Positions 19,361 to 52,608 of a DNA stretch of 64,000 nt are shown here, one piece after another; the stretch's first letter is position 1, and every line of letters starts with the position of its first letter. The position numbers and the translations under genes were made by a program. The DNA comes from Mya arenaria (lineage: Eukaryota > Mollusca > Bivalvia > Myida > Myidae), in contig NC_069135.1 of NCBI RefSeq assembly GCF_026914265.1, positions 17,538,406 to 17,602,405 of the forward strand, written 5' to 3'. Below the pieces are notes generated by a model. It was not told where the DNA came from. It saw only the letters and a list, made by a program, of their open reading frames with translations, and searched no databases.

Positions 19361-20230
19361 CTCCAAAAATAATGATCCTTGTATTAATCCTAATTTATAA
19401 TGGTATACTGTACCAGTCTTCTTTAAAAATGAAAACAAAAAGTGGCTCCCTGCTTAAGCCAGTTTATTTGCTTATATTTTACAAATAACGAAAATATAAC
19501 AGGCTGCATTTGGTCCACTGGGCGCTTCTTATAACCAAACAGCACGAGAGCGAAATATGTCGACAAGAATAATAAGTTTGCATCACCTGTAATTAAAAAA
19601 TACTGACAACCTTCGCTTTAAAATCGACAAATTATGTTGTAAATATAAATGTTGGGTGTGCATGAATGTTACATGCGACATCTGGCATTGGAGCCTAGGC
19701 CGGGATCTTGGAGGTAAATTGGAAAAAGTTCAGTGACAGCACCTATAAACTTATATCTTTACTATATACAACCCAGGATATATCTGTGGTTGTGCGGCTC
19801 ATATGGTCACCGGCTGCACACAGAGTAGCATGGACTGAATCGAGCTGCCAGCGCAATTTTAATTCTATTTTGTATGACTATGTTTATAAATATACTTTAT
19901 GGTATTTGATTTCATCATAATTGCATCTAACGGATTTGATAGTTTTAAAACCGTCTTGGTATCTGTATTTTGTTCCAACTGATTTAAGGCAATTTAGTTT
20001 TACCTGCCTCTGAGTTTGAAACCTGCCGCCGACGTATTTTTCCCCATTGTTATAACTATATAATTTATTCAATGACTAACCTTCTAACCCTAATATCATT
20101 TTCTTTCTTCCAAATATTCAGAAAGGTTTTATAGTTGACACCTCAAAAAAATGAGGGTAATGGGTGCCTCGTTCACCCGACAAGGAATATCTTTTTTATG
20201 ACATGCAAGTAGTGCAAAAACACGTTTTAC

Positions 20231-20374
20231 CAGACTCTGATGCGTTTCCAGGGGTGAAACCGAGCTCTTTGAGAAGGAAGGCGATATCGAGCTCGTCGTC
20301 CGGGCCTCCAGGCAACAGGATGACATCACTTCCGTCGTTTGCCACGGTCTCTAACTCTTCTTCAGCAACGTCAA
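20231..20374 (-). pseudogene. His-tract copy 1a, exon 2
   Basis: 144 bp, acceptor TTTCTGCAG, donor GAGTCTG|GTAAAA. Encodes the acidic propeptide (LDVAEEELETVANDGSDVIL ... FTPGNASES). If the donor is not used, the frame runs on for ten codons (KTCFCTTCMS and neighbours) to a stop. Confidence 0.8.
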
Positions 20375-21401
20375 CTGCAGAAAGGGACGCATGCTTAATT
20401 CCACTAAACAAAATAAGTTTTAAACAAAATGTAACATAATTGACCATGGCGCGTATAAGACAAACCCGAGGGATTGAGTGAATCTATCCGCTATAAGCGT
20501 GCATATGCATGCTACTTATGGACGACATGTTTCCATGTCAGACTTGATTGATCATTCAGAACCTTTAAAAGATCTGTATTCTAACCAAGTTTTACGAAAG
20601 AGTGCCATGGATAATCTGTCCCTGAATGAACACTTCAAACAAGGCTCACAATTGGACTCAATCTTATTAAAATAAGATCCCCAATACACGCTGCACGACT
20701 TTACACTATGATCGTACATAAAGTAATGAAATGAAGTGAACGTCATCATGATTTGAATGGGATTGAATTGGACCCGTCTTCAAGTGCACATTGGGCGTAC
20801 GACTTCGAAGATCGTAAGACCAAGAAGGCTCATTAACATTATGTTAAGATAACTTAATAAGGTAAATTGAAACTAAAGACGGAGTAGTTGACACTGGTTC
20901 CGTTAACACTAGAAGATTTGGGGCTAGACGAGGGGGTGGGGGTGGGTGGGTAGGCGGCTGCTCCCTTCTGAAGTAGGCATTGTCAAATTTTTATGTCGGA
21001 TAAAAACACACACACTTAAATGCCCCATTTCAGACTTAAGATCGGCTTCCAGAGGGTAGAGCCCCAAAGGCCCATACAAACCTTTAACTAAGTGTCATTT
21101 CATTTCATTCATCAAAAGTTTCACCCCTAACCTATATGCCCCTCTCAAGCCGAGTGACGACTAATCCTGTGTACGGTAGTCTGTACTTTTTCCCAATTCG
21201 GAAGGAACAGGCGGTGAAAGAAATCAAAGAAAGATCACTGAATTTACACAACTCGTTACAAAAATAAATACTAGTAACTACTGTTATTCAGAATAGTCGA
21301 CACAAAACATTGTTTAAGTTTGATCGCAGTTGAAATATGTTATACTAGTATTAATACTTTTTAAATACGAAAACAAGATAAAAGACAAAAGAGAAACTTA
21401 C

Positions 21402-21519
21402 GTTCCAAATACGGCTTTAACTTTTCATAGAACTCGACATTACTCAGGCTCAGAGACTGGTGGACCGCCGCAAAACCAACCAGAAGGAAAAAAAAACTCC
21501 AAGTAATCATCGGTGCCAT
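21402..21519 (-). pseudogene. His-tract copy 1a, exon 1 (signal peptide)
   Basis: ATG at 21519. MAPMITWSFFFLLVGFAAVH is a typical signal peptide, followed by QSLSLSNVEFYEKLKPYLE and donor GAAC|GTAAGT. It has one extra Phe compared with copies 2 and 3, and the frame is intact. It could still be transcribed with exon 2 as a short secreted peptide, but downstream exon 3 is destroyed. Confidence 0.75.
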
Positions 21520-23300: not shown

Positions 23301-24678
23301 TAGCGGCCTAGCGGCGTGAAGTTAGCGGCCTAGCGGCGTGAAGTTAGCGTCCTAGCGGCGTAAAGTTAGCGGCCTAGCGGCCTAGCGGCCTAGCGGCCTA
23401 GCGGCGTGAAGTTAGCGCCCTAGCGGCCTAATATGGTATCTTATTTCAAAGTATGAATATATGCTTTTTCTTCTTAAACAATGATAAATTAACTGTTTTG
23501 TGCACGAAATATCAATTTCAAGCGATTTTCAACAATTTTTTTCAAAAAAGTTTATCAAACATTTTTCTATTTTATAGCATGCAAACATGCCTGCTCTGCT
23601 AACAAAATGATATATTTTCTGTTTATATGCACCAATCATCAGTCTGAAGCGATTTTTAACATTTTTTCCAAGAAGTCGATCAAGGGATCCAGCGGCCTAG
23701 CGGTCTAGCGGCCTAGCGGCCTAGCGGCGTGAAGTTAGCGGCCTAGCGGCCTAGCGGCCTAGCGGCCTAATATGATATGTTATTTCGAAGTACGAATGCA
23801 TGCCTTTTCTTCTTAAACAATGATACATTTGCTATTTATATGCACCAATCATCAGTCTGAAGCGATTTTCAACATTTTTTCCTAAATGTCGATCAAGCGA
23901 TCCAGCGGCCTATCGGCGTGAAGTTAGCGGCCTAGCGGCCTAATATGATATCTTATTTCAAAGTACGAATACATGCCTTTTCTTCTTAAACAATGATACA
24001 TTTGCTATTTATATGCACCAATCATCAGTCTGAAGCGATTTTCAACTTTGAAAGAAATGTTGAAAATCGCTTTAAATTTATATTTTGTGCACAAAAACAG
24101 TTAATATATCATTGTTTGGAAAAAAAATGTTGAAAATCGCTTCAGACTGATGATTGGTGCATATAAATAGCAAATGTATCATTGTTTAAGAAGAAAAGGC
24201 ATGTATTCGTACTTTGAAATAAGATATCATATTAGGCCGCTAGGCCGCTAGGCCGCTAACTTCACGCCGCTAGGCCGCTTAGGCCGCTGGATCGCTTGAT
24301 CGACTTCTTGGAAAAAATGTTAAAAATCGCTTCAGACTGATGATTGGTGCATATAAACAGAAAATATATCATTTTGGTTAGCAGAGCAGGCATGTTTGCA
24401 TGCTATAAAATAGAAAAATGTTTGATAAACTTTTTTGAAAAAATTGTTGAAAATCGCTTGAAATTAATATTTCGTGCACAAAAACAGTTAATATATCATT
24501 GTTTAAGAAGAAAAAGCATATATTCATACTTTGAAATAAGATACCATATTAGGCCGCTAGGCCGCTAACTTCACGCCGCTATGCCGCTAAGCCGCTAGGC
24601 CGCTAACTTCACGCCGCTAGGCCGCTAGGCCGCTAGGCCGCTAACTTCACGCCGCTAGGCCGCTAACTTCACGTACAT
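23301..24678. mobile_element. Foldback element F2 (left end missing)
   Basis: Same family as F1. The right end TCACGTACAT is intact at 24669-24678, but the left ATGTACGTGA terminus is absent: satellite DNA passes straight into TAGCGGCCTAGCGGCG at 23301. It arose through duplication of the F1 region, not by independent insertion, since its right flank is the same exon 3 remnant (ATCGAGAAG). Confidence 0.8.
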
Positions 24679-25585
24679 ATCGAGAAGACTGGCTATTTCC
24701 GGGTCTACGGCTACAAAAATAAAGATCCTTGTATTAATCCTAATTTATAATGGTATATAAATACTTTTATCCTGTACCAGTCCTCTTTAAAAATGAAAAC
24801 AAAAAGTGGCTCCCTGCTTAAGCCAGTTTATTTGCTTATATTTTACAAATAACGAAAATCAACAGGCTGCATTTGGTCCACTGGGCGCTTCTTATAACCA
24901 AACAGCACGAGAGCGAAATATGCCGACAAGAATAATAAGTTTGCATCACCTGTAATTAAAAATACTGACAACCTTCGCTTTAAAATCGACAAATTATGTT
25001 GTAAATATAAATGTTGGGTATGCATGAATGTTACATGCGACATCTGGCATTGGAGCCTAGGCCGGGATCTTGGAGGTAAATTGGAAAAAGTTCAGTGACA
25101 GCAACTATATCTTTACAATATACAACCCAGGATACATCTGCGGTGGTGCGGTTCATATGGTCACCGGTTGCACACAGAGTAGCATGGAATGAATCGAGCT
25201 GTCAGCGCAATTTTAATTCTATTTTGTATGACTATGTTTATAAATATACTTTATGGTATTTGATTTCATCATAATTGCATCTAACGGATTTGATAGTTTT
25301 AAAACCGTCTTGGTATCTGTATTTTGTTCCAACTGATTTAAGACTATTTAGTTTTACCTGCCTCTGAGTTTGAAACCTGCCGCCGACGTATTTTTCCCCA
25401 TTGTTATAACTATATAAATTATTCAATGACTAACCTTCTAACCCTTATATCATTTTCTTTCTTCCAAATATTCAGAAAGGTTTAATAGTTGACACCTCAA
25501 AAAAATGAGGGTAATGGGTGCCTCGTTCACCCGACAAGGAATATCTTTTTTTATGACATGTATGTAGTGCAAAAACACGTTTTAC

Positions 25586-25729
25586 CAGACTCTGATGCGT
25601 TTCCAGGGGTGAAACCGAGCTCTTTGAGAAGGAAGGCGATATCGAGCAAGTCGTCCGGGCCTCCAGGCAACAGGATGACATCACTTCCGTCGTTTGCCAT
25701 GGTCTCTAACTCTTCTTCAGCAACGTCAA
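25586..25729 (-). pseudogene. His-tract copy 1b, exon 2
   Basis: 144 bp, acceptor and donor as in copy 1a. One Glu in PDDELDI is changed to Leu. The read-through tail has a Cys to Tyr change (CFCTTYMS). Confidence 0.75.
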
Positions 25730-26757
25730 CTGCAGAAAGGACGCATTATTAATTCCACTAAACAAAATAAGTTTTAAACAAAATGTAACATAATTGACCA
25801 TGGCGCGTATAAGACAAACCCGAGGGATTGAGTGAATCTATCCGCTATAAGCGTGCATATGCATGCTACTTATGGACGACATGTTTCCATGGTCAGACTT
25901 GATTGATCATTCAGAACCTTTAAAAGATCTGTATTCTAACCAAGTTTTACGAAAGAGTGCCATGTATAATCTGTCCCTGAATGAACACTTCAAACAAGGC
26001 TCACAATTGGACTCAATCTTATTAAAATAAGATCCCCAATACACGCTGCACGACTTTACACTATGATCGTACATAAAGTAATGAAATGAAGTGAACATCA
26101 TCATGATTTGAATGGGATTGAAATGGACCCTTCTACAAGTGCACATTGGGCGTACGACTTCGAAGATCGTAAGACCAAGAAGGCTCATTAACATTATGTT
26201 AAGATAACTTAATAAGGTAAATTGAAACTTAAGACGGACTAGTTGACACTGGTTCCGTTAACACTAGAAGATTTGGGGCGAGACGAGGGGGTGGGGGTGG
26301 GTGGGTAGGGGGCTGCTCCCTTCTGAAGTTGGCATTGTCAAATTTTTATGTCGGATAAAAAACACACACACTTAAATGCCCCATTTCAGACTTAAGATCG
26401 GCTTCCAGAGGGTAGAGCCCCAAAGGCCCATACAAACCTTTAACTAAGTGTCATTTCATTTCATTCATCAAAAGTTTCACTCCTAACCTATATGCCCCTC
26501 TCAAGCCGAGTGACGACTAATCCTGTGTACGGTAGTCTGTACTTTTTCCCAATTTGGAAGGAACAGGCGGTGAAAAAAATCAAAGAAAGATCACTGAATT
26601 TACACAACTTGTTACAAAAATAAATACTAGTAAATACTGTTATTCAGAATAGTCGACACAAAACATTGTTTAAGTTTGATCGCAGTTGAAATATGTAATA
26701 CTAGTATTAATACTTTTATAATACGAAAACAAGATAAAAGACAAAAGAGAAACTTAC

Positions 26758-26876
26758 GTTCCAAATACGGCTTTAACTTTTCATAGAACTCGACATTACT
26801 CAGGCTCAGAGACTGGTGGACCGCCGCAAAACCAACCAGAAGGAAAAAAAAAACTCCAAGTAATCATCGGTGCCAT
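26758..26876 (-). pseudogene. His-tract copy 1b, exon 1 (frameshifted signal peptide)
   Basis: 119 bp against 118 in copy 1a: the homopolymer coding FFF has ten T instead of nine, shifting the frame in the signal peptide. A sequencing error in the homopolymer is possible. TATA box GTATATAT at 26928-26935. Confidence 0.7.
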
Positions 26877-31258: not shown

Positions 31259-31486
31259 TCATTCATATCTTTCAGCCGAGTCAGAGTCATCTTCGGCGCT
31301 ATCTTCGAAACTCCCATCTTGGTTCTCGTTTTTCTCATCGGATCCACTGTCAACGTCATCAGATGCCGGATCAAAGTCATCAGATGGGAGGTCATCAGTG
31401 CCCTCTTGGCGCTCAATGGCTTGGTTGTCGGTGTGGCATGGGATACGGAAACAGCCGATGTTTTGATAGGCGCTGTGAACGTGACC
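31259..31486 (-). CDS. His-tract copy 2, exon 7: acidic tail
   Basis: Acceptor CCATTGCAG. GHVHSAYQNIGCFRIPCHTD is followed by an Asp/Ser/Glu-rich tail (DDLPSDDFDPASDDVDSGSD ... EDSAEDDSDSAERYE) and TGA. Serines amid acidic residues look like CK2-type sites. Another frame of this exon is also open, but it does not join exon 6 and is not conserved in character. Confidence 0.8.
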   Translation of the reverse strand, partial: GHVHSAYQNIGCFRIPCHTDNQAIERQEGTDDLPSDDFDPASDDVDSGSDEKNENQDGSFEDSAEDDSDSAERYE

Positions 31487-34400
31487 CTGCAATGGTTCAT
31501 TCCGAAAGTTTGAAATTGAATTCAATGTGTTACAGGTATTTCATATTCAGATATCCATTGAAATGCTTTTGAAATTTCTTTGCATATAAAAGGGGTTTTT
31601 ATAGGTCTGTAACGCCACTAATTGCTAGAGACGTACACAAATTCAGCTGTAACTCTTTGCTTTACATAACAAATTCAAATTAATCAATTAATCTTACTAC
31701 TTTGGCAAGCAGAAGGCTTTCTGAAAATTGATTTTGTTTAATGAATCTAACGAATACAAGAAACGTTTTACAGAACATGATGCCCGCATAGATTATCCCT
31801 TTTTAAATTTAAATTATACCTTGATGTTGACGGTTCCGGTGATGCGCGCGCACATAGTGCGGCGGCTCCTGTTGATACTGTACAGCTGGGCACACAGACG
31901 GCTGGAGGGTGACACGAGGTGGTGCACGTGGTAGCAGTACTGGTACGTGGACCTGCCCACTACAGCATGATAAACAAAAGGGATATGGTGATTATATCTA
32001 ATCAATAACATGTTTCACATTGGCTTTTAACGATTTTCAAAATCGGTCAAACATTGTAGTCCAACTGTACAGCTCTTTTGACCCATTATAATGTTTGTCA
32101 AGTTTGTGACAGGCTAAGTAGATGAAGCGGTCGCATTTGCGGTCGGTTGTGATGTTGAGAAAGCGGTCGTATTTACGGTCGTCTGTGTGGTATCCGTACT
32201 TATCCGTATACTTACAGTCTAATGTTGTTTGAGGACGCGGTGACCTTACCTACAGTCGCCTAAAGCATGGATGGTGCAGTGTCTTTACTTACGGTCGTTT
32301 GTAGTGTGGAGAAGGCGGTATCCTTACTTACGGTCGTCTGTAGTGTAAAAGGAGGCGGTATCCTTACTTACGGTCGTCCGTAGTGTGGAGGAGGTGCTAT
32401 CCTTATACTTATGGTCGTCTGTAGTGTGGATGGTGCGGTATCCTTACTAACGGTCGTCTGTAGTGTGGATGGTGCGTTATTCTTTTTTTACGGTAGTCTG
32501 TAGTGTGTAAGGTGCGGTATCTTTACCTACGGTCGTCTTTATTGTAGAGGAGTTGGTGTGGAGGAGGCGGTATCCGTACTTTCTGTCGTGTTTAGTGTGA
32601 AGGAGCGGTTGTCCGTAGGCAGTTTCAGCACATTCGAACGTTTGTGGTGTGGAGGAGGCACTGCCGGTACACACCTATGTTTATGGTGTAGATACGGCGG
32701 TGCCGATACTCACTGTTGTTTGTGGTCTGACGAATGCGGTGTTGGTACTTATGGCTGTAAGCGCTGTAGGGGAGGCTGTGTCAAAACTAACGGCTTGAGG
32801 AGACGATATCGGTAATTTCAGCCGTATGTGATGGAGAGGCGGCGATATCGGTAATTACGAATGTTTGTGGTGGACAGACGGCGATATCGGTACTTACGAC
32901 TGTCTGTGACTGAGAAGGGGCAATATTTGTACTTTCGGCTGTTTGTGGTCGAGAGGAGGCGATATCGGTACTTACGGCTGTTAGTGGTGGAGAGGGGGCG
33001 ATATCGGTACTTACTGCTGTTTGTTATGGAGAGGCGGCGATATCGGTACTTACGACTGTTTGTGGTAGAGAGGCGGCGATATCGATACTTACGACTGTTT
33101 TTGGTGGAGTATGGGCGATATCGGTACTTATGGCTGTTTGTGGTTGAGAGTAGTCGTTTTGGGTACTTACGCCAGTTTGTGGTTGAGCGGTGTCGATATC
33201 GGTACTTACAGCAGTTTGTGGTTGGGCGGTGTCGATATCGGTACTTACGTCAGCATGTGGTTGAGCGATGTCGATATCGGTAATTACGACTGTTTATGGT
33301 TGAGTGGTGTCGATATCGGTAATTACGACTGTTTGTGGTCGAGCGGTGTCGATATCGGTACTTACGGCAGTTTGTGGTAGAGCGATGTCGATATCTGTCC
33401 TTACGGCTGTGTGGTTAAATGGTGTCGATATCGGTACCTACGGCAGTTTGAGGTTGTGTGGTGGCGGTATCGGTGCTTACGGCAGTTTGAGGTTGAGTGG
33501 TGGCGGTATCGGTACTTACGGCAGTTTGAGGTTGAGTGGTGGCGGTATCGGTACTTACAGCAGTTTGAGGTTGAGTGGTGGCGGTATCGGTACTTACGGC
33601 AGTTTGAGGTTTAGTGGTGGCGGTATTGGTACTTATGTCGGTATGTGGTTGATAAATGTCGATATTGGTATTTAAGCCAGTTTGTGGTTGAGTGGTGGCG
33701 GTTTCGGTACTTACGGTAGTTTGTGTCTGAGTGGTGGCGGTTGCGGTTCTTACGGCAGTTTGTGGTTGTGTGGTGGCGGTATGGGTACTTATGACAGTTT
33801 TTGGTCGAGCGGTGTCGATATCGGTACTTACGGCAGTTTGTGGTTGAGTGGTGTCGATATCGGTACTTACGGCAGTTTGTGGTCGAGCGGTGTCGATATC
33901 GGTACTTACGGCAGTTGTAGGTGTAGAGGAGGCGGTATCCATTCAAGGTAAATGAGAGCAGGTAACTACTGTAGCTCCGGTAATCCACCCGGATACACAC
34001 TGGAATGGCGCAGAAGCAAAATGTCAAATCAATGCATACAAGAAAGTTTGAAATAACAGCAATATAAAAAAGTAACTCGCTAGTATTAAAAACAGAAAAT
34101 CTTACAGCTTTCTTACTATTGAGATCGAAGCGATGGTATCTGTAGTAGTGTCTCACGGCAAATGTTCGCATGACACATGCAGCGCAGCCCCGCTTGAAAC
34201 ACTGGACAAACTGTCGGCGTGGGCATTTGTGATAGTGGTGATGATGATGGTGGTGGTGATGATGATGGTGGTGGTGATGGTGATGATGATGGTGCCACCA
34301 CCAGCCTAGGTCCCTTGATTTCCCCACGACTGAAGAAGATAAGAAATTCACGTTAATCCTAAACTGCGTATGTACTACCATTTTCAAGTGCTCGAATGAT

Positions 34401-37400
34401 TATTTTCAATAAAATGGCATGCATTGTATAACCGCTTCAAGCTCATTCCGCATAAAGTTCGAGCGTGAGCTATACGCGTTTCGTGTGATGTATATACGTA
34501 ACGTGTGAGGTATATGCGTAACATGTGAGGTATATGCGTAGAGTGTGAGCAATATGCGTAACATGTGAGTTATATGCGTAGCGTGTGAGCTTTATGCGTT
34601 ACGTGTGAGGTATATGACTTTTCTATGTTCTATGTGCAACATTATTTTAATTATTAAAAGAGTCCACGTAATTCTGGATCAATCCTCGTATGCGTAACGT
34701 ATGAGGTATAAGCGTAACGTGTGAGGTATATGCGTAACGGATGAGATATATGCGTAGCGTGTGAACCATAGCCCTGTGATCAATTGCTACTTTATTGTTT
34801 CACTTGATTAGGACAAACGCTTAAGAACAATTCAAAATAATAAACGGCAAAGTATGTGTAATGCGTGAACATTACAAGGGCCATAACTCGTTGGCCCACT
34901 GTTCCCTAGGTATATTCCTTTAAATAAAGCGTTTAAGCAAAAATTTACTTTTCAACAGAAATTGATTAATTTTAATGGAAATGTTTTTTTTATAAGTATA
35001 TGACAATGTGAGTTTGTATATTGTACACGAATCCTAATGGTCCCAGTTTAACCTGGTCGCCTCCCTTGATACGAAACATGCGTTATTTTAATTTGCGAAA
35101 GAAAAAGCTCATGTGAACTATATTATAACAGTACCCAGCATAAAGCTCGCGTGAGCTATATCATTACAGTTCCGCGCATAAAGCTCGCGTGAGCTATATC
35201 ATTACAGTACCCAACATAAAGCTCGCGTGAGCTATATCATTACAGTACCCAGCATAAAGCTCACATGATCTATATTATAACAGTGCCCCGCATAAAGCTC
35301 ACATTATCTATATCATTACAGTACCCCGAATAAAGCTCACATGATCTATATCATTACAGTGCCCAGCATAAAGCTCACATGATCTATATCATTACAGTAC
35401 CCCGAATAAAGCTCACATGAGCTATATCATTACAGTGCCCCGCATAAAGCTCACATGATCTATATCATTACAGTGCCCCGCATAAAGCTCACATGAGCTA
35501 TATCATAACAGTGCCCCGCATAAAGCTCGAGTGAGCTATATCTTTACAGTGCCCCGCATAAAGCTCACGTGAGCTATATCATTACAGTGCCCCGCATAAA
35601 GCTCACATGAGCTATATCATTACAGTTCCCCGCATAAAGCTCACATGATCTATATCATTACAGTACCCCGAATAAAGCTCGAGTGAGCTATATCATTACA
35701 GTTCCGCGCATAAAGCTCACGTTAGCTATATCAATACAGTGCCGCGGATAAAGTTCACGCGAGCTATATCATTACAGTACCCCGAATAAAGCTCGAGTGA
35801 GCTATATCATTACAGTTCCGCGCATAAAGCTCACGTTAGCTATATCATTACAGTGCCGCGGATAAAGTTCACGCGAGCTATATCAGTGCCGCGCATAAAG
35901 CTCACATGATCTATATCATTACAGTGCCCCGAATAAAGCTCGAGTGAGCTATATCATTACAGTTCCGCGCATAAAGCTCACTAGCTATATCAATATAGTG
36001 CCGCGGATAAAGTTCACGCGAGCTATATCAGTGCCGCGCATAAAGCTCACATGAGCTATATCATTACAATACATCGCATAAAGCTCACAAGAGCTATATC
36101 ATTACAGTGCCCCGAATAAAGCTCACGTGAGCTTTATCATTACGGTGCCGCGCTTAAAGCGTGAGCTATTTGCGGAATGAGCTTTATGAGGTCATACAAT
36201 GCATTAACCTTTCTGAGGTTTAAGTTTAAAAAAAGCGTTCTGACAGGTACAAATGAATAGTACTAATAAATTCAAATACCTTTCCGAGGAGCGAGGTTGA
36301 ACGCATCGAGAAGACTAGCTATTTCCGGGTCTACGGCTATAAAAAATAAAGATCCTTGTATTAATCCTAATTTATAATGGTATATAAGTGTTTTCATCTT
36401 GAACCAGTCCTCTTTATGAATGAAAATAGTTGAAACATCAATATGGCTCCAGGCTTTAGCCAGTTTATTTGTTTATATTAAGGCTGCACTCTCACAGATT
36501 TACCGTTTTTCCAACTTTTTTTATTTTTCTTGGAATTAGCAAATTTTTGCGTAAATACTTGCTTACCAGTGATGAAAGACTGCTGACAAAAGATCAGATC
36601 ACAGTTATTCATATTTCCAATCCAAATTTAATGTTGTATGGCTTAAACCGTTACTAACGGTTACTAACGGTTTATGAAAAATGCATAAAACATCAATTTT
36701 TGGTAGGAAAAATGAAAAGCTTCGATCTGATCTTTTGTCAGCAGTGTTTTATTACTGGTTTGCAGATATTTACGCAAAAATTTGCTCGTTCCAAGACAAA
36801 GAATAAAAAAGTTGTCAAAACGGGAAATCTGTGAGAGTGCAGCTTTAATGAACAACGAAATAAATAACCGGCTGCATTTGGTCCATTGGACGCTTCTTAT
36901 AACAAAACTGCACGAGAGTGAAATATGTCGACAAGAATAATAAGTTTGCTCCACCTGTAATAAAAGTATAGTCTACCTTTGGTTTAAAATTGACAATTTA
37001 TGTAATATAATACAATATATAAATATATATATATACAAAAATATAAAGGTTGGGTATGCATGTATGTAACATGCAACATTGAGTCTGTGTCGTCATCTCG
37101 CACTGAGCCTCGGGCCAGGATCTTGGAAGTAAATTGGAAAAAGTTCAGTGACAGCACCTATAAACTTATATCTTTACTATATACAACCCAGGATATATCT
37201 GCGGTGGTGCAGTTCATATGGTCACCGGCTGCACACAGAGTAGCATGGACTGAATCGAGCTGCCAGCGCAATTTTAATTGTATTTTGTATGACTATGTAA
37301 ATATATATATATATGAATTTTATCCCATTAAAACCCTATCTAACGGATTTGTTAGTTAAAAAAGCTTCTCGGTACCTGTAATGTTCCAACCGATTAAAGA

Positions 37401-38081
37401 CCATTTAGTTAAACCTGGAAATTTTAAATTTTAAATTTTTTTAAATTTGGAAACTGCTGCCTACCCAATGTTTTAACTATATACCTGTATTTTATTCCAT
37501 AACTAACCTTCTAACATTTACATTTGATTTTCTGTCTTACAAATATTCAGAAATGTTTTAGATTTGAAAACTCAAAACAATGTGGCTAATGGGTAACTCG
37601 TTCACCAGACAAGGAATATCTTTTAGTCGTGACAATATTTAAAAGACATGCAAGTAGTGCAAAAACTCGTTTTACCAGACTCTGATGCGTTTCCAGGGGT
37701 GAAACCGAGCTCTTTGAGAAGGAAGGCGATATCGAGCTCGTCGTCCGGGCCTCCTGGCAACAGGATGACATCACTTCCGTCGTTTGCCACGGTCTCTAAC
37801 TCTTCTTCAGCAACGTCAACTGCAGAAGAGTTACGCATTATTGATTCCACTAAACAAAATAAGTTTTAAACAAAATGTAACATAATTGACCATGGCACGT
37901 ATAAGACGAACACGCGGGAGTGAGTGAATCTATCCGCTATAAGCGTGCATATGTATGTTACTTGTCGACGGCATGTTTCCAGGGTCAGATTTGATTGAAC
38001 CTTCAGAGCCTTTGGGAGAATTAAAGGGCTGCACCCTTCAAAAATTGGCATAGTCAATATTTTCATGTTGGATAAAAGACA

Positions 38082-38117
<36 letters not shown>

Positions 38118-38606
38118 CACACGCACACACACACACACACACACACACTTAAATGCCCCATTTCAGACTAAAGATCAGCTTCCAGAGGGTAGGGCCCCCA
38201 AAGCCCCTACCAACTTTTAACTAAGTGTAATTTATTTTTTGTTGAAAGTTGCTCTCCCTAACTTACGCCCCTCTCAAGCCGAGTGACGACTAATCCTGTG
38301 TACGGAAGTCTGTAAGTTTTCCCAATTTGGAACGAACAGGCGGTGAATGAAATCAAAAGAAGATTTTACACAACTTGTTACAAAAACAAATAACTACTGT
38401 TATTCAGAAAAGTCTAAAAGAATCATTGTTTAAGGATGATTGCAGTTCGAAAACGAAATAAAGATGAAAAAGAAAAAAAAGAGAAACTTACGTTCCAAAT
38501 ACGGCTTTAACTTTTCATAGAACTCGACATTACTCAGGCTCAGAGACTGGTGGACCGCCGCGAAACCAACCAGAAGGAAAAAACTCCAAGTTATCCGCTG
38601 TGCCAT
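31259..38606 (-). CDS. His-tract gene, copy 2: secreted His-tract / acidic-tail protein, intact
   Basis: Seven exons join without a break: 38492-38606, 37676-37819, 36280-36336, 34117-34329, 33910-33999, 31820-31959 and 31259-31486. Total 987 nt, 328 residues plus stop. Every intron is GT..AG and phases agree (1,1,1,1,1,0). Order: signal peptide 1-22; acidic propeptide to about residue 87; exon 3 (VDPEIASLLDAFNLAPRK); RK-VVGKSR, a possible convertase site; WWW and 20 His; CPRRQFVQCFKRGCAACV; a Tyr/Cys-rich region; and a C-terminal 45 residues dominated by Asp, Ser and Glu. The His run suggests metal binding and the tail suggests calcium binding or phosphorylation, but both are inference. Family not recognised. 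The gene is convergent with a receptor A fragment. The introns are full of satellites. Confidence 0.8.
31820..31959 (-). CDS. His-tract copy 2, exon 6
   Basis: Acceptor CATGCTGTAG, donor AAG|GTATAA. Encodes GRSTYQYCYHVHHLVSPSSR then LCAQLYSINRSRRTMCARIT and GTVNIK. Three cysteines. The phase 1 start fits every donor in the upstream repeat array. Confidence 0.8.
32110..33909. repeat. Intron 5 minisatellites of copy 2 (36- and 39-bp units)
   Basis: A short 36-bp remnant lies near 32110-32190, M2-type 39-bp units near 32260-32600, then M3-type units to the exon 5 donor. Next to exon 5 the donors at 33909, 33870, 33831, 33753 and 33714 keep GTAAG in identical phase, and the exon 5 frame stays open through them to about 33611. 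Confidence 0.9.
33910..33999 (-). CDS. His-tract copy 2, exon 5
   Basis: Acceptor GCCATTCCAG, donor CTGCC|GTAAGTACC. Encodes CIRVDYRSYSSYLLSFTLNG and YRLLYTYNC, a beta-strand-like Tyr-rich segment. Its final bases and donor define the repeat unit of the neighbouring array. Confidence 0.8.
34117..34329 (-). CDS. His-tract copy 2, exon 4: WWW-His20 and Cys motif
   Basis: Acceptor ATCTTCTTCAG, donor AATA|GTAAGA. Encodes VGKSRDLGWWW, 20 consecutive His (mixed CAC/CAT codons), YHKCPRRQFVQCFKRGCAAC and VMRTFAVRHYYRYHRFDLN. The mix of the two His codons shows the tract is not a pure recent triplet slippage. Confidence 0.8.
34455..34760. repeat. 20-bp minisatellite in intron 3 of copy 2
   Basis: About ten interrupted units of the GCGTAACGTGTGAGGTATAT family also seen at 17101-17560. 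Confidence 0.75.
35107..36175. repeat. 38-bp palindrome-bearing satellite (S38), array in copy 2
   Basis: About 28 units of 38 bp. The core is CATAAAGCTCACGTGAGCTA, then TATCATTACAGTGCCCCG. The best units contain the perfect palindrome AGCTCACGTGAGCT, with CACGTG (E-box) or CATGAG/CGCGTGAG variants. Lies wholly in intron 3. Confidence 0.9.
36280..36336 (-). CDS. His-tract copy 2, exon 3
   Basis: Acceptor TTTTTTATAG, donor GAAAG|GTATTT. 57 bp encoding VDPEIASLLDAFNLAPRK. Conserved in copy 3 with Leu to Gln as the only residue change (..AFNQAPRK). It ends in a basic pair next to VVGKSR, suggesting the end of the propeptide. Confidence 0.8.
36478..36847. mobile_element. Palindromic MITE, copy b
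   Basis: TTAAGGCTGCACTCTCACAG at the left and CTGTGAGAGTGCAGCTTTAA at the right, inverted. Internal arms (CTGCTGACAAAAGATCAGAT / ATCTGATCTTTTGTCAGCAG) are also inverted. Centre near ACGGTTACTAACGGTT. Located in intron 2 of copy 2, and absent from copies 1 and 3. Confidence 0.85.
37676..37819 (-). CDS. His-tract copy 2, exon 2: acidic propeptide
   Basis: Acceptor CTTCTGCAG, donor GAGTCTG|GTAAAA. Encodes LDVAEEELETVANDGSDVIL, LPGGPDDELDIAFLLKELGF, TPGNASES. It differs from copies 1a and 3 only at synonymous positions. Read-through into the intron would add KTSFCTTCMSFKYCHD and stop. Confidence 0.8.
38078..38150. repeat. CACG/CA microsatellite in intron 1 of copy 2
   Basis: About 70 bp of CACG then CA units. 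At the same place copy 3 has about 48 bp of CA (52560-52607) and copies 1a/1b only a few units, so this is one expanding locus. Confidence 0.9.
38492..38606 (-). CDS. His-tract copy 2, exon 1: signal peptide
   Basis: ATG at 38606. MAQRITWSFFLLVGFAAVHQ is a clear signal peptide, with cleavage likely after the small residues near 17-22. Then SLSLSNVEFYEKLKPYLE and donor GAAC|GTAAGT. A TATA box lies just upstream. Confidence 0.85.
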
Positions 38607-38656: not shown

Positions 38657-38665
38657 GATATATAC
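38657..38665 (-). promoter_or_regulatory. TATA box, copy 2
   Basis: GTATATATC on -, about 51-59 bp upstream of the ATG. Position and surroundings are conserved in all four promoter copies. Confidence 0.65.
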
Positions 38666-38985
38666 TGGTCAAAGATCCGGGTTGCTGATTGTATCTTACC
38701 ATCCTACTCACTGTTCCTCTTACAGATTCCGCAAATCTAAGGATTCACTCGACAAGTACTCGATATTTAAGTGATCACTGTCGGTGCAGCCGGACTAAAG
38801 TATTAAAACTTTCTTGATAATGTTATAATTTTAATCAAATTGATTTCGGTGATATTGTTGTGCAATATTATTAGTCAATGGGCCTCACTTGATGCCAATC
38901 TTGCCTGTCATGACTTTGATACGATCTTAATCAGATTGATCTTACATTTAATAAAAATCCATGTTATTAATATATAGTATATACT

Positions 38986-41109: not shown

Positions 41110-42228
41110 TTGGTCCATACCTGTAAAACTTTCTTCATTATCGGGTAGATGTTTTAAGTGCTTACATGTGACTTTAAGTTTTCTAAACAGAATACATAAC
41201 TGTATACAGCATGTCATATATGTAATAGGCCCGCTGGTTTGGGATTGAATTGTTGCTGTTTTTCTTTATTTTATAAATACATTCCATTGCCACATATTTT
41301 TCATTTTTGATAATACTAGATGTGTAGGTATATGTACATTAATTCGACAAGGTGTTTTGTTTGAGATAAGCGTTTTTACCATGAATTCCTTAAATCATTT
41401 AAGCAAATGAGCTGTGTGTTGTTTAATAATCAACTTGTGTTTTATTAAACTTGACTGCATTTATATAAACTTTGCCATTGTCATATATCCAATAAAGTAA
41501 TAAACACATCACATGGGTTTTGCTGCATGCATTATTTATTCAGAAAACACAGAAACAGAGCAACATAGAGATTTACATGGATAAAGTTCCTATACATACT
41601 TACAGTAAGAACACAGAAAACGCTCAGAAAAACAACAACAGCATATTCAACAATTGCAAATATTTTTTCAATAAAATGACATTTAAACATTGTTCATATG
41701 CTATTCCCTTTTAATACATGGTGCATAATGAAAGACTGTAGTCAAACAATTGTACAGTACGAAGCACAAACACCGAGAATATAATTATCCATAGGATATG
41801 TATTCTTTTGGCATTTGAAAACAAAATTGAATTCATTGAATTATTGTTAACAAAGTTTTTTTGAGCCGAAAATTGTCTAATTGAGGGTAAATCACATATA
41901 AAATCTTACAACAGTCTGGAAAATATTGATCAAGTCACAGTCACCTCATCCAACCCTTGTAATGGGAATAACGTATCTCGCACTTAGCACACATTGCGTA
42001 TACTTTCAATAGCTCGGGTAGTGGGTGCTACAGCCTTTACATATTCTTATACAATTACTGCGACATGTTGCAACATAAATAATGAAATTTTACACAAATA
42101 TTTCTGAAGACAATATAAGTAGCACACTCATGCAAAAGTACAAAGAATACACAGCATCTTAGCAGTGTCATAATAAAATCAAGATTCTAGTTGGACACAT
42201 CTTTCAGATCGGAAGTTCAATCATATCT

Positions 42229-42444
42229 TTAAGCGGAGTCAGAGTCGTCTTCGGCGCTATCTTCTAAACTCCCATCCTGGTTCTCGCTTTCCTCTTTGGA
42301 TCCACTGTCAAGAGCAACAGATGCCGGGTCAAAGTCATCAGAGGGGAGGTCATCCGTGCCCTCTTGGCGCTCAATGGCCGCGTTGTCGGTGTGGCATGGG
42401 ATACGGAAACAGCCCATGTTCTGATAGGCGCTGCGAACGTGGCC
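42229..42444 (-). CDS. His-tract copy 3, exon 7
   Basis: Acceptor TAATTTCAG. GHVRSAYQNMGCFRIPCHTD, then an acidic tail ending SLEDSAEDDSDSA and stop. It reads normally, but sits downstream of the exon 4 stop. Confidence 0.65.
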   Translation of the reverse strand, partial: GHVRSAYQNMGCFRIPCHTDNAAIERQEGTDDLPSDDFDPASVALDSGSKEESENQDGSLEDSAEDDSDSA

Positions 42445-42782
42445 CTGAAATTATTAATTCCAAAAGTTTGAAACTGAATTCAAGGTATTACAGGTAGTAC
42501 ATGTTATTCAGGTATTCATAGAAATGTTTTTGAAGTTTCTTTGCATATAAAAGGTATCCTTTTATAGGTCTGTTACGCTACATATTGCTAGAGACGTACA
42601 CAACTTCAACTGAAACTCATTGCTCCACATAACAAACTCCAATTAAACAATAGATTTTACTACTGTGGCAAGCGAAAGGCCTTCGGAAAATCGATTTTGT
42701 TTAATGTAACTAACGAATACAAGACATGTTTTACAAAACATGATGCCCACATAAAATTTGCATTGTTAAATTTAAATTATAC

Positions 42783-42922
42783 CTTGAGGTTGACGGTTCC
42801 GGTGATGCGCGCGCACATAGTGCGGCGGCTCCTGTTGATACTGTAGAGTTGAGCACACAAGCGGCTGGAGTGTGAAATGAGGTGGTGCACGTGGTAGCAA
42901 TACTGGAACGTGGACCTGCCCA
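42783..42922 (-). CDS. His-tract copy 3, exon 6
   Basis: Acceptor TTCTGCTATAG, donor AAG|GTATAA. GRSTFQYCYHVHHLISHSSR then LCAQLYSINRSRRTMCARIT and GTVNLK. Same length and phase as copy 2. Confidence 0.7.
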
Positions 42923-43089
42923 CTATAGCAGAATAAACAAAAGGGATATTGTGGTTATATCTAATCAACAATGTTTCACAGAGGCTTTAGACAATTTTTG
43001 AAGTTAGTCAAACTTTGTAGCCCAACTGAATAGCTCGCTTTATCAGTGACCCCATTATTATGTTTGTGAAGTTTGTGACAGGCTAAGTA

Positions 43090-45400
43090 GAAGAATCGGT
43101 CGTATTCTCGGTCGGTTGAAGTGTAGATAAAGCGGTCGTATTTACGGTCGTTTGTGATGTTGAGGAAGCGGTCGTATTGACGGTCGTCTGTGTGGTATCC
43201 GTACTTATCCGTATACTTACAGTCTAATGTTGTTTGAGGACGCGGTGACCTTACATACGGTCGTCTGTATTGTGTATGGTGCGGTATTCTTACTGACGGT
43301 CGTCTGTAGTATGGATGGTGCGGTATCCTTACTTACGGTCGTCTGTATTGTATATGGTATGGTATTCTTACTGACGGTCGTCTGTAGTATGGATGGTGCG
43401 GTATCCTTACTTACGGTCGTCTGTAGTGTGGATGGTGCGGTATCCTTACTTACGGTCGTCTGTAGAGTGGAGGAAGCGGTATCCTTACTTACGGTCGTCT
43501 GTAGTGCGGATGGTTCGGTATCCTTACTTACGGTCGTCTGTAGAGTAGATGGTGTGGTTTCCTTACTTACGGTCGTCTGTAGTGTGGATGGTGCGGTATC
43601 CTTAGTTACGGTCGTCTGTAGAGTGGATGGTGCGGTATCCTTACTTACGGTCGTCTGTAGTGTGAATGGTGCGGTATCCTTACTTACGGTCGTCTGTAGT
43701 GTGAATGGTTCGGTATCCTTACTAACGGTCGTCTGTAGAGTGGATGGTGCGGTATCCTTACTTACGATCGTCTGTAGTGTTGATGGTGCGGTATCCTAAC
43801 ATACGGTCGTCTGTAGTGTGGATGGTGCGGTATCCTTACTTACTGTCGCCTGTAGTGTGAATGGTGGCAGTATCTTTACTTACGGTCGTCTGTAGAGTGG
43901 ATGGTGCGGTATCCTTACTTACGGTCGTCTGTATTGTGGAGGAGGCGGTATCCTTACTTACGGTCGTCTGTAGAGTGGATGGTGCGGTATCCTTACTTAC
44001 GGTCGTCTGTAGTGTTGATGGTGCGGTATCCTTACTTACGGTCGTCTGTAGAGTGGATGGTGCGGTATCCTTACTTACGGTCGTCTGTAGTGTTGATGGT
44101 GCGATATCCTTACTTACGGTCGTCTGTAGTGTTGATGGTGCGGTATCCTTACTTACGGTCGTCTGTAGTGCGGATGGTGCGGTATCCTTACTTATGGTCG
44201 TCTGTAGTGTGGAGGAGGCGGTATCCTTACTTACGGTCGTCTGTAGTGTGGAGGAGGCGGTATCCTTACTTACGGTCGTCTGTAGTGTGGAGGAGGCGGT
44301 ATCCTTACTCACGGTCGTCTGTAGTGTGGATGGTGTGTTATCCTTACTTACGGTCGTCTGTAGTGTGGATGGTGCGGTATCCTTACTTACGGTCGACTGC
44401 AGTGTGGATGGTGCGGTATCATTACCTACGGTCGTCTGCTGTGTGGATGGTGGCGGTATTCTTACTTCCGGCAGTCTGTAGAGTGGAGGAGGCGGTATTC
44501 TTACTTCCGGTTATCTGTAGTGTGGAGGAGGCAGTATCCTAACTTCCGGTTGTCTGTAGCGTGGAGGAGGCGGTATTCTTACTTATGGTCGTCTGTAGTT
44601 TGAAGGAGATGGCATCCTAACTAACGGTCGTCTGTAGTGTGGATGGTGCGGTATCATTACTTACGGTCGTCTGTAGAGTGGATTGTGCGGTATCCTTACT
44701 TACGGTCGTCTGTAGTGTAGATGGTGCGGTATTCTTACTTACGGTCGTCTGCAGTGTGGATGGTGCGGTATCCTTACTTACGGTCGTCTGTAGTGTGGAT
44801 GGTGCGGTATCTTTACTTACGGTCGACTGTAGTGTGGATGGTGGCAGTATCCTTGCTTACGGTCGTCTGTTGTGTGGATGGTGCAGTATCATTACCTACG
44901 GTCGTCTGTTGTGTGGATGGTGGCAGTAACCTTACTTCCCGCAGTCTGTAGAGTGGAGGAGGCGGTATTCTTACTTCCGGTTATCTGTAGTGTAGATGAG
45001 GCGGTATCCTAACTTCCGGTTGTCTGTAGCGTGGAGGAGGCGGTATTCTTACTTATGGTCGTCTGTAGTTTGAAGGAGGTGGTATCCTAACTAACGGTCG
45101 TCTGTAGAGTGGATGGTGCGGTATCCTTACTTACGGTCGACTGTAGTGTGGATAGTGCGGTATCCTTACTTACGGTCGACTGTAGTGTGGATGGTGCGGT
45201 ATCCTTACTTACGGTAGACTGTAGTGTGGATGGTGCGGTATCCTTACTAACGGTCGACTGTTGTGTGGATGGTGCGGTATCCTTACCTTCGGGTCGTCTT
45301 TATTGTAAAGTAGTTGGTGTCTTTAGTTCCGGTCGTGTGTGGTGTGGAGGAGGCGGTATCCGTACTTACTGTCGTTTGTAGTGTGAAGGAGCGAGTGTCC
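43090..45400. repeat. 39-bp minisatellite M2 in intron 5 of copy 3
   Basis: A few 36-bp units (43090-43200), then more than fifty M2 units, homologous to 10980-13130. Long open frames on + and - (up to 213 codons) come from the 39-bp period. GTAAGTAAG is kept in most units on -. Confidence 0.9.
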
Positions 45401-45636
45401 GTAGGCGGTTTCATCACTTTCGGACGTTTGTGTTGTGGAGGAGGCACTGCCGGTACTCACCTATGTTTATGGTGTGGATACGGCGGTGTCGTTACTCACG
45501 GTTGTTTGTGGTGGGACGAATGCGGTGTCGGAACTTACGGCTGTAAGCGCTGTAGAGGAGGCTGTGTCAGAACTGACGGCTTTTACGGCACTGACGGCTG
45601 TTTGTGGTGGAGATGTGTCGAAACCGGTCATTACGG

Positions 45637-48430
45637 ATGTACGTGAAGTTAGCGGCCTAGCGGCCTAGCGGCCTAGCGGCGTGAAGTTAGCGGCCTAGCG
45701 GCCTTGCGGCGTTAAGTTAGCGGCCTGGCGGCCTAGCGGCGTGAAGTTGGCGGCCTAGCGGCCTAGCGGCCTAGCGGCCTGGCGGCCTAATTATTTTTTC
45801 TATTTCCAAGCAATTGTTAATGCGTTTTTTTTAAAACAATGATAAATCAAGGTTTTTTATTCATATAGTTACATAGCGGCCTTAAATTGTTATATATTCA
45901 GAATATTTTTCTTTACCTTTTATTCTAAAACAATTTTAAATTAACTGTTTTATGCACAAATTATCACTCTGAAGCGTTTTTCAAACTTTTTTCAAAAAAG
46001 TCGATCAAGCACTTCAGCGACTTAGCGGCATAGAAGCCTGAAATTAGCGGCCTAGCGGCCTAGCGGCCTAAATTGAATCCTATTTCAAAGCATGTATACA
46101 TGCATTTTCTTCTAAAACAATAACATTTTAACTGTTTTTATGCACAAATTAGCACATTGAAGCGATTATCAACAATTTTTTTCCAAAAACGTCGATAAAG
46201 CAGTCAGCTATTTCAAAGAATTAAACATGCCTGTTCTTCTTAATCAATGATATATTAACTGTTTATATGCACCAATTATCACTCTGAAGCGTTTTTCAAC
46301 TTTTTTTTCAAAAAAGTCGATCGAGCACTTCAGCGGCCTAGCGGCCTAGTGGCCTAGCGGCGTGAAGTTAGCGGCCTGGCGGCCTAGCGGCCTAGCGGCC
46401 TAAAATGGTATCCTATTTCAAAGCATGTATACATGCATTTTCTTCTAAAACTATGACATATTAACTGTTTTTATGCACAAATTAACACTTTGAAGCTATT
46501 AGCGATTATCAATATTTTTTTTTATTAAAAGCGTCGATAAAGCAGTCAGCTATTTCAAAGCATTAAACATGCCTGATCTTCTAAAACAATGATATATTTA
46601 CTGTGTTTATGCACAAATTATCACTCTTAAGTTTTTTTTATTTTTTTTCAAAAAAGTTGATCGAGCACTTCAGCGGCCTAGCGGCCTAGCGGTCTAGCGG
46701 CGTGAAATTAGCGGCCTGGCGGCCTAGCGGCCTAAAATGGTTTCCTATTTCAAAGCATGTATACATGCATTTTCTTCTAAAACAATGACATATTAACTGT
46801 TTGAATGCACAAATTAACACTTTGAAGCTATTAGCGATAATCAACATCTTTTTTTTTCAAAAAAGTCGATTAAGCAGTCAGCATACATGCCTATCCTTCT
46901 CAAAAATATGTTGATAATCGCCTCAGAGTGATAGTCCGTGCATAAAAACAGTTAACATATCATTTTTTTAGAAGAAAATGCATGTAGTCATGCTTTGAAA
47001 TAGGATAGCATTTTAGGCCCCCAGGCCGCTAGGCCGCTAGGCCGCTAACTTCACGCCGCTAGGCCGCTAGGCCGCTAGGCCGCTGAAGTGCTTGGTCGAC
47101 TTTTTTTTAAAAAGTTGAAAAACGGTTCAGAGTGATTATTTGTGCATAAAAACAATAAATATATCATTGTTTTAGAAGAACATGCATGTTTAATGCTTTG
47201 AAATAGATGACTGCTTTATCGACGCTTTTGAAAAAAAAAACTGTTGATAATCGCTAATAGCTTCAAAGTGTTAATTTGTGCATAAAAACAGTTAATATGT
47301 CATTGTTTTAGAAGAAAATGCATGTATACATGCTTTGAAATAGGAAACCATTTTAGGCCGCTAGGCCGCTAGGCCGCCAAGCCGCTAACTTCACGCCGCT
47401 AGGCCGCTAGACCGCTGAAGTGCTCGATCAACTTTTTTGAACAAAAATAAAAAAAGCTTTAGAGTGATAATTTGTGCATAAAACAGTAAATATATCATTG
47501 TTTTAGAAGATCAGGCATGTTTAATGCTTTGAAATAGCTGACTACTTTATCGACGCTTTTAATTTTTTTTATTGATAATCGCTAATAGCTTCAAAGTGTT
47601 AATTTGTGCATAAAAACAGTTAATATGTCATTGTTTTAGAAGAAAATGCATGTATACATGCTTTGAAATAGGATACCATTTTAGGCCGCTAGGCCGCTAG
47701 GCCGCCAGGCCGCTAACTTCACGCCGCTAGGCCGCTAGGCCGCTGAAGTGCTCGATCAACTTTTTTGAAAAAAAGTTGAAAAACGCTTCAGAGTGATAAT
47801 TGGTGCATATAAACAGTTAATATATCATTGATTAAGAAGAACAGGCATGTTTAATGCTTTGAAATAGCTGACTGCTTTATCGACGTTTCTGGAAAAAACT
47901 GTTGATAATCGCTTCAATGTGTTAATTTGTGCATAAAAACAGTTAAAATGTTATTGTTTTAGAAGAAAATGCATGTATACATGCTTTGAAATAGGATTCA
48001 ATTTAGGCCGCTAGGCCGCTAGGCCGCTAATTTCAGGCTTCTATGCCGCTAGGTCGCTGAAGTGCTTGATCGACTTTTTTGAAAAAAGTTTGAAAAACGC
48101 TTCAGAGTGATAATTTGTGCATAAAACAGTTAATCTAAAATTGTTTTAGAATAAAAAGGTAAAGAAAAATATTCTGAATATATAACAATTTAAGGCCGCT
48201 ATGTAACTATATGAATAAAAAACCTTGATTTATCATTGTTTTAAAAAAACGCATTAACAATTGCTTGGAAATAGAAAAAAATAATTAGGCCGCCAGGCCG
48301 CTAGGCCGCTAGGCCGCCAACTTCACGCCGCTAGGCCGCCAGGCCGCTAACTTCACGCCGCTAGGCCGCTAGGCCGCTAACTTCACGCCGCTAGGCCGCT
48401 AGGCCGCTAGGCCGCTAACTTCACGTACAT
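45637..48430. mobile_element. Foldback element F3
   Basis: 2794 bp with perfect ends ATGTACGTGAAGTTAGCGGC and its complement. Arms of nearly 1.4 kb are inverted copies around a centre near 46900. Each arm alternates GGCCTAGC-type subrepeats with AT-rich modules containing CTTCTAAAACAATGA and TATGCACAAATTA. Flanks TCATTACGG and TACTTACGG (7 of 9 bases) fit a 9-bp target duplication. It splits the minisatellite of intron 5. No transposase frame. A longer, diverged subfamily of F1/F2. Confidence 0.85.
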
Positions 48431-48944
48431 TACTTACGGCTGTTTGCGGTGTAGAAGAGGCGATATCGGTACTGACAACTGTTTGTGCTTGAGCGGTGGT
48501 AGTATCGATACTTACAGCAGTTTGAGGTGGAGAAGAGGCAATATCGGTACTTACGACTGTTTTCGGTGGAGAAGAGATGATATCGATTCTTACAACTGTT
48601 TGTGGTTGAACGGTGTCGATATGAGTACATACGTCAGTATGTGGTTGAGCGATGTCGATATCGGTATTTACGACAGTTTGTGGTTGAGTGGTGGCGGTTT
48701 CGGTACTTACGGCTGTTTGTGGTTGAGTGGTGGCGGTGTCGGTACTTACGGGAGTTCGTGGTTGGGTGGTGGAGGTATCGGTACTTATTGCAGTTTGTGG
48801 TTGAGTAGTAGCGGTGTCGGTACTTACGGCAGTTTGTGGTTGACTGTCGGAAGTATCGGTACTTACGGCAGTTTGTGGTTGAGCGATGTCGATATCGGTA
48901 CTTACGGCAGTTTGTGGTTGAGTGGTGGCGGTTTCGGTACTTAC
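48431..48944. repeat. 39-bp minisatellite M3 in intron 5 of copy 3
   Basis: About thirteen M3 units between element F3 and exon 5, homologous to 13340-14129 and carrying GTAAGT on - in most units. Confidence 0.9.
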
Positions 48945-49034
48945 GGCAGTTTGAGGTGTAGAGAAGGCGGTATCCATTCAAGGTGAATGAGATCAGGTAA
49001 CTACTGTAGCTCCGGTAATCCACCCGGATACACA
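48945..49034 (-). CDS. His-tract copy 3, exon 5
   Basis: Acceptor GCCATTCCAG, donor CTGCC|GTAAGT. CIRVDYRSYSSYLISFTLNG then YRLLYTSNC. Confidence 0.7.
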
Positions 49035-49150
49035 CTGGAATGGCGCAGAAGCAAAATGTCAAATAAATGCATACAAAAAGTTTGAAATAACAGCAATATA
49101 TAAAAGTAACTCACTAGAATTGAAAACAGAAAACCTAACTGCTTTCTTAC

Positions 49151-49363
49151 CATTGAGGCTGAAGCGATGGTAGCCACGGTAGTGTTTCACGGCAAATGTT
49201 CGCATGACACATGCAGCACAGCCCCGCTTGTATCACTGGACAAACTGCCGGCGTGGGCATTTTGGATAATGGTGGTGGTGATGGTGGTGGTGATGGTGAT
49301 GGTGGTGGTGGTGATGATGATGATGGTGCCACCAACAGCCTAGGTCCCTTGATTTCCCCACTA
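49151..49363 (-). CDS. His-tract copy 3, exon 4 (contains stop)
   Basis: Acceptor TCTTCTGCAG, donor AATG|GTAAGA. VGKSRDLGCWW, 20 His, YPKCPRRQFVQ then TGA. The His count equals copy 2 although the CAC/CAT codon order differs, which suggests the length is under constraint. Confidence 0.65.
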
Positions 49364-49534
49364 CTGCAGAAGATGCACGTTAAGAATAAAACACGTATTC
49401 AGTACCATTTCAAAGTGCTCGAATTATTATTTTCAATAAAGTTGCATCATGTATTGTAAAACCGCTTCAAGCTCTTACCTTATACTCGTTATGTGTGGGC
49501 TATACTAGTTACGTGTGAGCTATATGCTCCACAC

Positions 49535-51068: not shown

Positions 51069-51164
51069 TGTGTCATATGTGTACAATGCATTAACGTTTC
51101 TGGCCCAGTCTAAAATAAAGCGTTCTGACAGGTTCAAATGATAAGTATAAATAAATTCAAATAC

Positions 51165-52558: not shown

Positions 52559-52559
<1 letters not shown>

Positions 52560-52607
<48 letters not shown>
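52560..52607. repeat. CA microsatellite in intron 1 of copy 3
   Basis: About 24 CA units, at the same position as the repeat at 38078. Confidence 0.95.

Positions 52608-52608
<1 letters not shown>

Follow-up and report, generated by a model that had tools for sequence, protein, structure and literature searches.

A split gene of the clam Mya arenaria for a putative secreted polyhistidine protein with a diverged DUF4773 domain

Do the small open frames spread over the minus strand of a 64,000-nucleotide stretch of the Mya arenaria genome belong to one gene and, if so, to which family does it belong and what might its product do? The stretch (C14:17538406-17602405 of a genome of 1.216 Gb in 18 contigs; hereafter the window, with positions counted from its first letter) contains a locus, here called gene B, that the original prediction had read as a seven-exon gene for a secreted protein with 20 consecutive histidines and acidic flanks. 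We find that gene B is very probably a real, split clam gene for a secreted protein. The gene, its exon structure, its relationship to the Pfam family DUF4773 and its block plan are computationally supported, and of these we are nearly certain. Gene and family are well supported, and the function is something that we infer.

Gene structure and intact copies

The coding sequence of gene B runs on the minus strand from a start codon at 38606 to a stop codon at 31259, exactly the limits originally predicted, and its seven exons join into a single frame of 328 residues that contains H20. The intron phases are 1,1,1,1,1,0, and all six introns have GT..AG ends. Two other exon boundaries were considered and rejected. 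A 338-residue model, in which exon 2 starts at 37849 through an acceptor 30 nucleotides (nt) upstream, was dropped in favour of 328 residues because only the acceptor at 37819 is common to the paralogues. An end of exon 4 at ..KKA was also ruled out; the donor after CTCAATA holds the frame in gene B, and a matching donor is present in copy D, an intact copy on the same contig beyond the window (Table 1).

Copy D has the identical order of seven exons, with the same phases and GT/AG sites as gene B, and this concordance, together with the GT..AG ends, bears out the seven exons, the single frame and the matching phases that had been proposed. Compared by blastn, B and D match in islands over each of the seven exons; that of exon 1 also takes in the promoter, that of exon 5 includes part of exon 4, and that of exon 7 includes the 3' flank. 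One further short island lies downstream, and many more matches represent the array in intron 5. (The DNA comparison of B with copy C was swamped by arrays and is not used as evidence.) A simple Nei-Gojobori count gives a synonymous divergence (dS) of 0.359, a nonsynonymous divergence (dN) of 0.134 and a dN/dS ratio of 0.37 between B and D, with segment ratios of 0.43 for residues 1-38, 0.50 for the acidic part, 0.41 for the domain and 0.36 for the tail. Conservation in D and the B-D islands thus uphold a single gene of seven exons whose product is a putatively secreted protein with His20 and acidic flanks, as opposed to unrelated frames. Exons 1-2 and exons 4-7 probably belong to one gene, as their order and phases are repeated in D and in two relatives on another chromosome, C5 (C5a and C5b), both of which have seven exons with the phases of gene B; a relative on a third chromosome, C16, has six exons.

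That the open frames line up by chance, or that the gene is decayed and not expressed, is a very improbable explanation. It is consistent with the state of the window, where the two other large copies and a fragment are all broken, but neither B nor D is broken, their splice sites, phases and promoter block are conserved, and the dN/dS of 0.37 also argues against it.

Upstream of the ATG of gene B lies a block with a TATA box that we infer to act as promoter. The block, GATACAATCAGC..CCCGGATCTTTGACC.GTATATAT, is present in slightly varied form upstream of A, B, C and D, which are all four of the C14 copies inspected; by eye, none is seen at C16 or C5a. At the other end of gene B there is a candidate poly(A) signal (the motif alone), and neither AATAAA nor ATTAAA occurs in the 700 nt past the stop of copy D.

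Counterparts of exon 1 are found at 21519, 53089 and 26848, and also in copy D. The prediction that three loci share the structure holds only in part: copies A and C are both broken, and A2 is a fragment. The lesions rule out A and C as working genes, and gene B is the sole intact copy inside the window.

The DUF4773 domain and the shared block plan

The whole genome was searched with a query of 68 residues from around exon 4, which gave at least 12 matches; seven of them belong to the family (B, C, D, A, the C16 locus and two loci on C5). The five others all match in the His run, and a search for exons 1-7 over 10 kb around each of them did not show the domain. The C16 locus (C16:39648820-39654643) encodes a protein of 335 residues in six exons, and the C5 loci encode proteins of 465 and 466 residues in seven exons each. 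The latter (C5:5438762-5444050 and C5:77351703-77346413) are near-identical genes, 72 Mb apart and on opposite strands, with 81 and 82 consecutive His; a real duplication and an assembly effect are both possible.

Two of these relatives match the Pfam family DUF4773 (PF15998; profile length 118, curated cut-off 27 bits). C16 scores above the cut-off with an E-value of 3.2e-12, at 47.4 bits for the preliminary whole model and 50.3 bits for the domain, and C5a gives an E-value of 3.2e-7 at 31.3 bits with the refined model (26.5 bits with the first model). Coverage of the profile is near-complete, spanning positions 2-114 in C16, 3-113 in C5a and 3-114 in copy D. The domain of gene B is 36% identical to that of C16 over 121 positions (E 5e-22) and 35% identical to that of C5 over 137 positions (E 8e-19), both computed with the preliminary models of those loci. 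Because C16 and C5a match Pfam and gene B resembles both, the Cys/Tyr-rich domain of gene B is, as judged by sequence similarity, a diverged DUF4773 domain, and the earlier view that no family with this order is known is not supported. Beyond the profile, the clam copies carry a poly-His run, an acidic part and an acidic tail.

The blocks of the gene B protein follow one another as a putative signal peptide (by eye), an acidic part with LPGGPDDELDIAFL, WWW-His20, a Cys/Tyr-rich basic domain and a tail rich in Asp, Ser and Glu. The exon-2 motif LPGGPDDELDIAFL reads IPGGPNDELDVEFL in C16 and has no alignment in C5a. A hydrophobic N-terminus, by eye a candidate signal peptide, is present in B, D, C16 and C5a. 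Each of the five intact copies has a pure His run (20, 10, 22, 81 and 82 residues), located at or shortly before the start of the DUF4773 domain, and 10 or 11 Cys within that domain. Their net charge is -10 to -37 ahead of the His run (counted from residue 26), +15 to +27 in the domain and -15 to -20 in the tail. The basic processing site that had been predicted is found as a dibasic site (..APRK) in B and D, but C16 and C5a have none where they align with it, and it is therefore no family-wide feature. In the four copies whose His codons were counted (B, D, C5a and C5b), CAC and CAT are mixed, and the tract is therefore no pure triplet repeat.

Proposed function of the protein

The His runs of up to 82 residues in the relatives suggest a metal-binding or acid-sensing protein. 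Binding of metal or calcium by the gene B protein is a guess, made more reasonable because the His run is kept in all five intact copies. The longest His repeat of the human proteome is reported as 15 residues (PMC2644819); the runs of 81-82 are far above this maximum and belong to a putatively secreted protein of orderly build whose charge plan is conserved.

We propose that the product of gene B is a secreted, metal- and pH-responsive extracellular binder or carrier, and we see the chances for and against this as evenly balanced, an estimate that covers the gene and the mechanism jointly. The mechanism is drawn from general histidine chemistry. The extracellular His run would coordinate Zn2+, Cu2+ or Ni2+, and would gain a large positive charge as the pH drops towards 6. 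The acidic segments would offset the basic domain and may bind Ca2+, and the DUF4773 domain would be the anchoring or ligand-binding part. Such a binder or carrier may be sited in haemolymph, mantle fluid or haemocyte secretions, and three settings would fit: a plasma metal carrier, a haemocyte or mucus defence protein, and a shell or sheath matrix protein.

DUF4773 proteins have been reported from several secretory or cellular sources. In the oyster, the DUF4773 gene G14414 is listed for a cluster of haemocytes regarded by the authors as equivalent to macrophage-like cells (PMC12064177); octopus skin mucus is described as containing DUF4773 proteins (PMC11431876), as are secreting locust pleuropodia (PMC6966819). 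A defence protein could be envisaged, in which an acidic proprotein frees a cationic, His-rich DUF4773 fragment that would take on a strong positive charge in acid phagosomes or mucus, and that would act on microbes or, as a variant, withhold zinc and copper from them. We consider this doubtful. The plan of an acidic pro-part followed by a basic Cys-rich domain is consistent with it, as are the dibasic site in B and D, the DUF4773 gene of the oyster macrophage-like cluster (PMC12064177) and the locust transcript, which is reported to be abundant in the pleuropodia and stands in the same table as two lysozymes (PMC6966819). Against it, C16 and C5a lack the dibasic site at the corresponding position, and removal of the acidic tail would be needed too.

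Mussel EP, the plasma histidine-rich glycoprotein (HRG) of mussels, offers a comparison within the bivalves. In Mytilus galloprovincialis it is described as the top-abundance serum protein, acidic, His-rich and cation-binding (PMC7174705). EP (MgC1q6) thus resembles the clam protein in being a secreted, His-rich and acidic bivalve protein, for which cation binding and ties to immunity and shell are reported (PMC7174705, PMC4517812). It differs in that its globular domain is C1q and its shell forms contain 14.3% His (PMC4517812), whereas the clam protein has one pure His run and DUF4773; the Pfam scan of gene B shows no C1q domain. The likeness would be one of similar design on another domain, an analogy and not homology; the clam family is a candidate for proteins of this kind in clams.

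The shell forms of EP also bear on a structural role, in which the protein would be located in shell, periostracum or siphon sheath, with the His run crosslinking through Zn or Cu, and the charged blocks and acidic tail binding calcium or the chitin matrix. This we regard as unlikely. The tails are Asp/Ser-rich, two His-rich EP-like (C1q) proteins are reported in a Mytilus shell proteome, whose authors call the role of EP in shell formation unknown (PMC4517812), and CBM_14 chitin-binding frames lie in the same window, a proximity that is weak evidence; but no matrix domain appears in the Pfam scan of gene B. Outside the molluscs, and compared by description, Ts-PCHTP of Trichinella has poly-cysteine domains and a His tail, is termed secretory and reportedly binds iron, nickel and zinc (PMC2954182). 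It differs in being a nematode protein, which its authors describe as homologous to no other protein and as not excreted by the larva (PMC2954182).

Several points weigh against the secreted metal- and pH-responsive binder. The His run varies greatly in length (10-82), and the human genome is reported to contain non-coding CAY tracts as long as 154 triplets (PMC2644819), so that long poly-His can arise without function. The hidden Markov model search that had been suggested found DUF4773 through C16 and C5a but left the domain of gene B itself unmatched in the Pfam scan, and copy D, at 21.4 bits (E 3.7e-4), falls below the cut-off; the membership of B and D therefore runs via C16 and C5. The His stretch matches the ZrgA zinc-uptake model weakly (E 0.0099) and the NCBIfam model of the Co/Ni-efflux protein DmeF at E 0.0023 (17.4 bits, where the cut-off is 250), in both cases through composition only, and the NCBIfam scan gave nothing beyond this composition. 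A sequence search of solved structures yielded no related one, with either no match at all or chance-level matches only (E 0.16 or worse). We know of no function for DUF4773; a literature search by identifier gave no paper naming PF15998, and among the matches listed for histidine-rich and polyhistidine proteins none names Mya arenaria.

Intronic arrays, broken copies and neighbouring features

The unit of the tandem array in intron 5 is similar to the closing ~30 nt of exon 5 together with the exon-5 donor. Arrays, chiefly of units of 39 base pairs (bp), make up 71% of this intron in both B and D and 89% in A; in C the share is 46%, and much of the remainder is an inserted element. The intron contains 27 copies of GTAAG in B, 93 in A, 85 in C and 49 in D, with means of 0.8, 1.9, 4.3 and 1.3 after shuffling. 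Aligned in the intron, the exon-5 end of gene B scored 38 against a maximum of 24 among 300 shuffled queries, and that of copy D, more weakly, 30 against 27. At C16 the exon end resembles the following array in two of three exons (scores of 53 and 85 versus 27 and 26). Sixteen of the 23 exon-intron pairs in B, D, C16 and C5a were assessed, and in 12 of the 16 the observed score was reached by 13-295 of the 300 shuffles. Intron 3 of gene B has arrays of other unit lengths, in which the end of exon 3 was not found above shuffles. The 39-bp exon-5-like arrays of C14 also occur at about 10452-14129 and 42923-48944, and those of C16 have 52/104-bp and 133-bp units after two exons (L016 6807-7311; L016 9844 to L017 251).

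Use of the 39-bp array in the message, with alternative donors adding in-frame 13-residue repeats (RKYRYRHHSTTNC) to exon 5 and so giving proteins of variable length, is highly unlikely. The unit is divisible by three and bears GTAAG donors, and the exon-5 frame continues into the array without a stop for 99 codons in gene B, 40 in copy A and 103 in copy C, but this is what one would expect of a unit derived from the exon. The intact copy D closes the frame after 4 codons, which makes a coding role of the array improbable, and C16 joins the corresponding exons without an insert; on these two counts a read-through repeat protein was rejected. A minisatellite described by Turri in 1995 reportedly supplies multiple splice donors in an interferon-induced transcript. 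Judged by its title, that case too concerns a tandem repeat giving repeated splice donors, whereas the units of the clam array resemble exon ends and its extra donors are candidate donors. Arrays of this kind would provide a natural test of how the spliceosome chooses one donor among dozens alike.

A wider and tentative reading, possible though improbable in our estimation, is that of a bivalve family in which a Cys-rich DUF4773 domain is joined to pure runs of 10-82 His, serving as a tunable metal/pH sensor in clam haemolymph or haemocytes, and in which introns lengthen as exon ends are copied over and over together with their donors, so that each gene gains dozens of donors that are decoys or alternatives. 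If true, it could represent a histidine-rich plasma protein of bivalves other than mussels and offer an entry point to the role of DUF4773. Clams serve in pollution monitoring, and gene B is a concrete candidate for metal handling in them, which would tie the orphan domain DUF4773 to a likely chemistry.

Table 1. Coordinates of gene B, its copies and associated features (window positions unless a contig is named).
Feature	Position	Strand	Description
Gene B exon 1	38492..38606	-	start codon, signal peptide (by eye)
Gene B exon 2	37676..37819	-	acidic part, motif LPGGPDDELDIAFL
Gene B exon 3	36280..36336	-	short, APRK at its end
Gene B exon 4	34117..34329	-	WWW-His20 and start of DUF4773 domain; CAC/CAT His codons mixed
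Gene B exon 5	33910..33999	-	middle of DUF4773, CIRVDY..FTLNGYRLLYTYN
Gene B exon 6	31820..31959	-	DUF4773, YCYHV..LCAQLYSINRSRRTMCARITG
Gene B exon 7	31259..31486	-	end of DUF4773 (IGCFRIPC), Asp/Ser/Glu tail, stop
Candidate core promoter block	38658..38695	-	TATA box TATATATC at 38664-38657, 58 nt upstream of gene B ATG
Candidate poly(A) signal AATAAA	30788..30793	-	466 nt past gene B stop; motif alone
Gene B intron 5	31960..33909	-	71% tandem array, 39-bp units, 27 GTAAG
Gene B intron 3 arrays	34465..36160	-	20-bp and 38-bp units
Copy D, intact	C14:17620854-17611921		beyond the window; 318 residues, H10
Copy A, pseudogene	9744..21519	-	split exon 3, His part of exon 4 gone, exon-6 acceptor AG changed to AA
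Copy A2, fragment	24673..26876	-	exons 1-3 (part) only; exon 1 frameshifted
Copy C, pseudogene	42220..53089	-	in-frame TGA in exon 4 at 49235-49233

In copies A and C the stop lies 4 residues earlier than the end of gene B. Exon 3 of copy A is interrupted by a 1401-bp insertion at 17928-19328, with flanks CTTCTCGAT/CTTCTTGAT. This insertion is one of three elements of (TAGCGGCC)n and its reverse complement, the others being at 23300-24680 and 45650-48417; its ends are ATGTACGTGA/TCACGTACAT, it has inverted arms (examined in this element alone among the three), and its flanks form a 9-bp near-duplicate.

Pfam was also run on seven neighbouring frames, and CBM_14 alone was above the cut-off. It is found in two Peritrophin-A (CBM_14) frames on the minus strand at 57774-58472, which likely belong to a multi-exon gene beside the cluster. 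Frames rich in Thr, Ser and Pro, with a stretch that probably spans the membrane, lie on the plus strand at 3014-3997, 5892-6239 and 7497-8483, the last two of which match no Pfam family above the cut-off; by eye, the three are perhaps one mucin-like receptor gene. A local duplication relates ~19300-23100 to ~24650-28400 at an offset of ~5.2-5.4 kb, and includes a frame starting MGFKSFPSLALGWLSQ (22821-23132 and 27992-28375).

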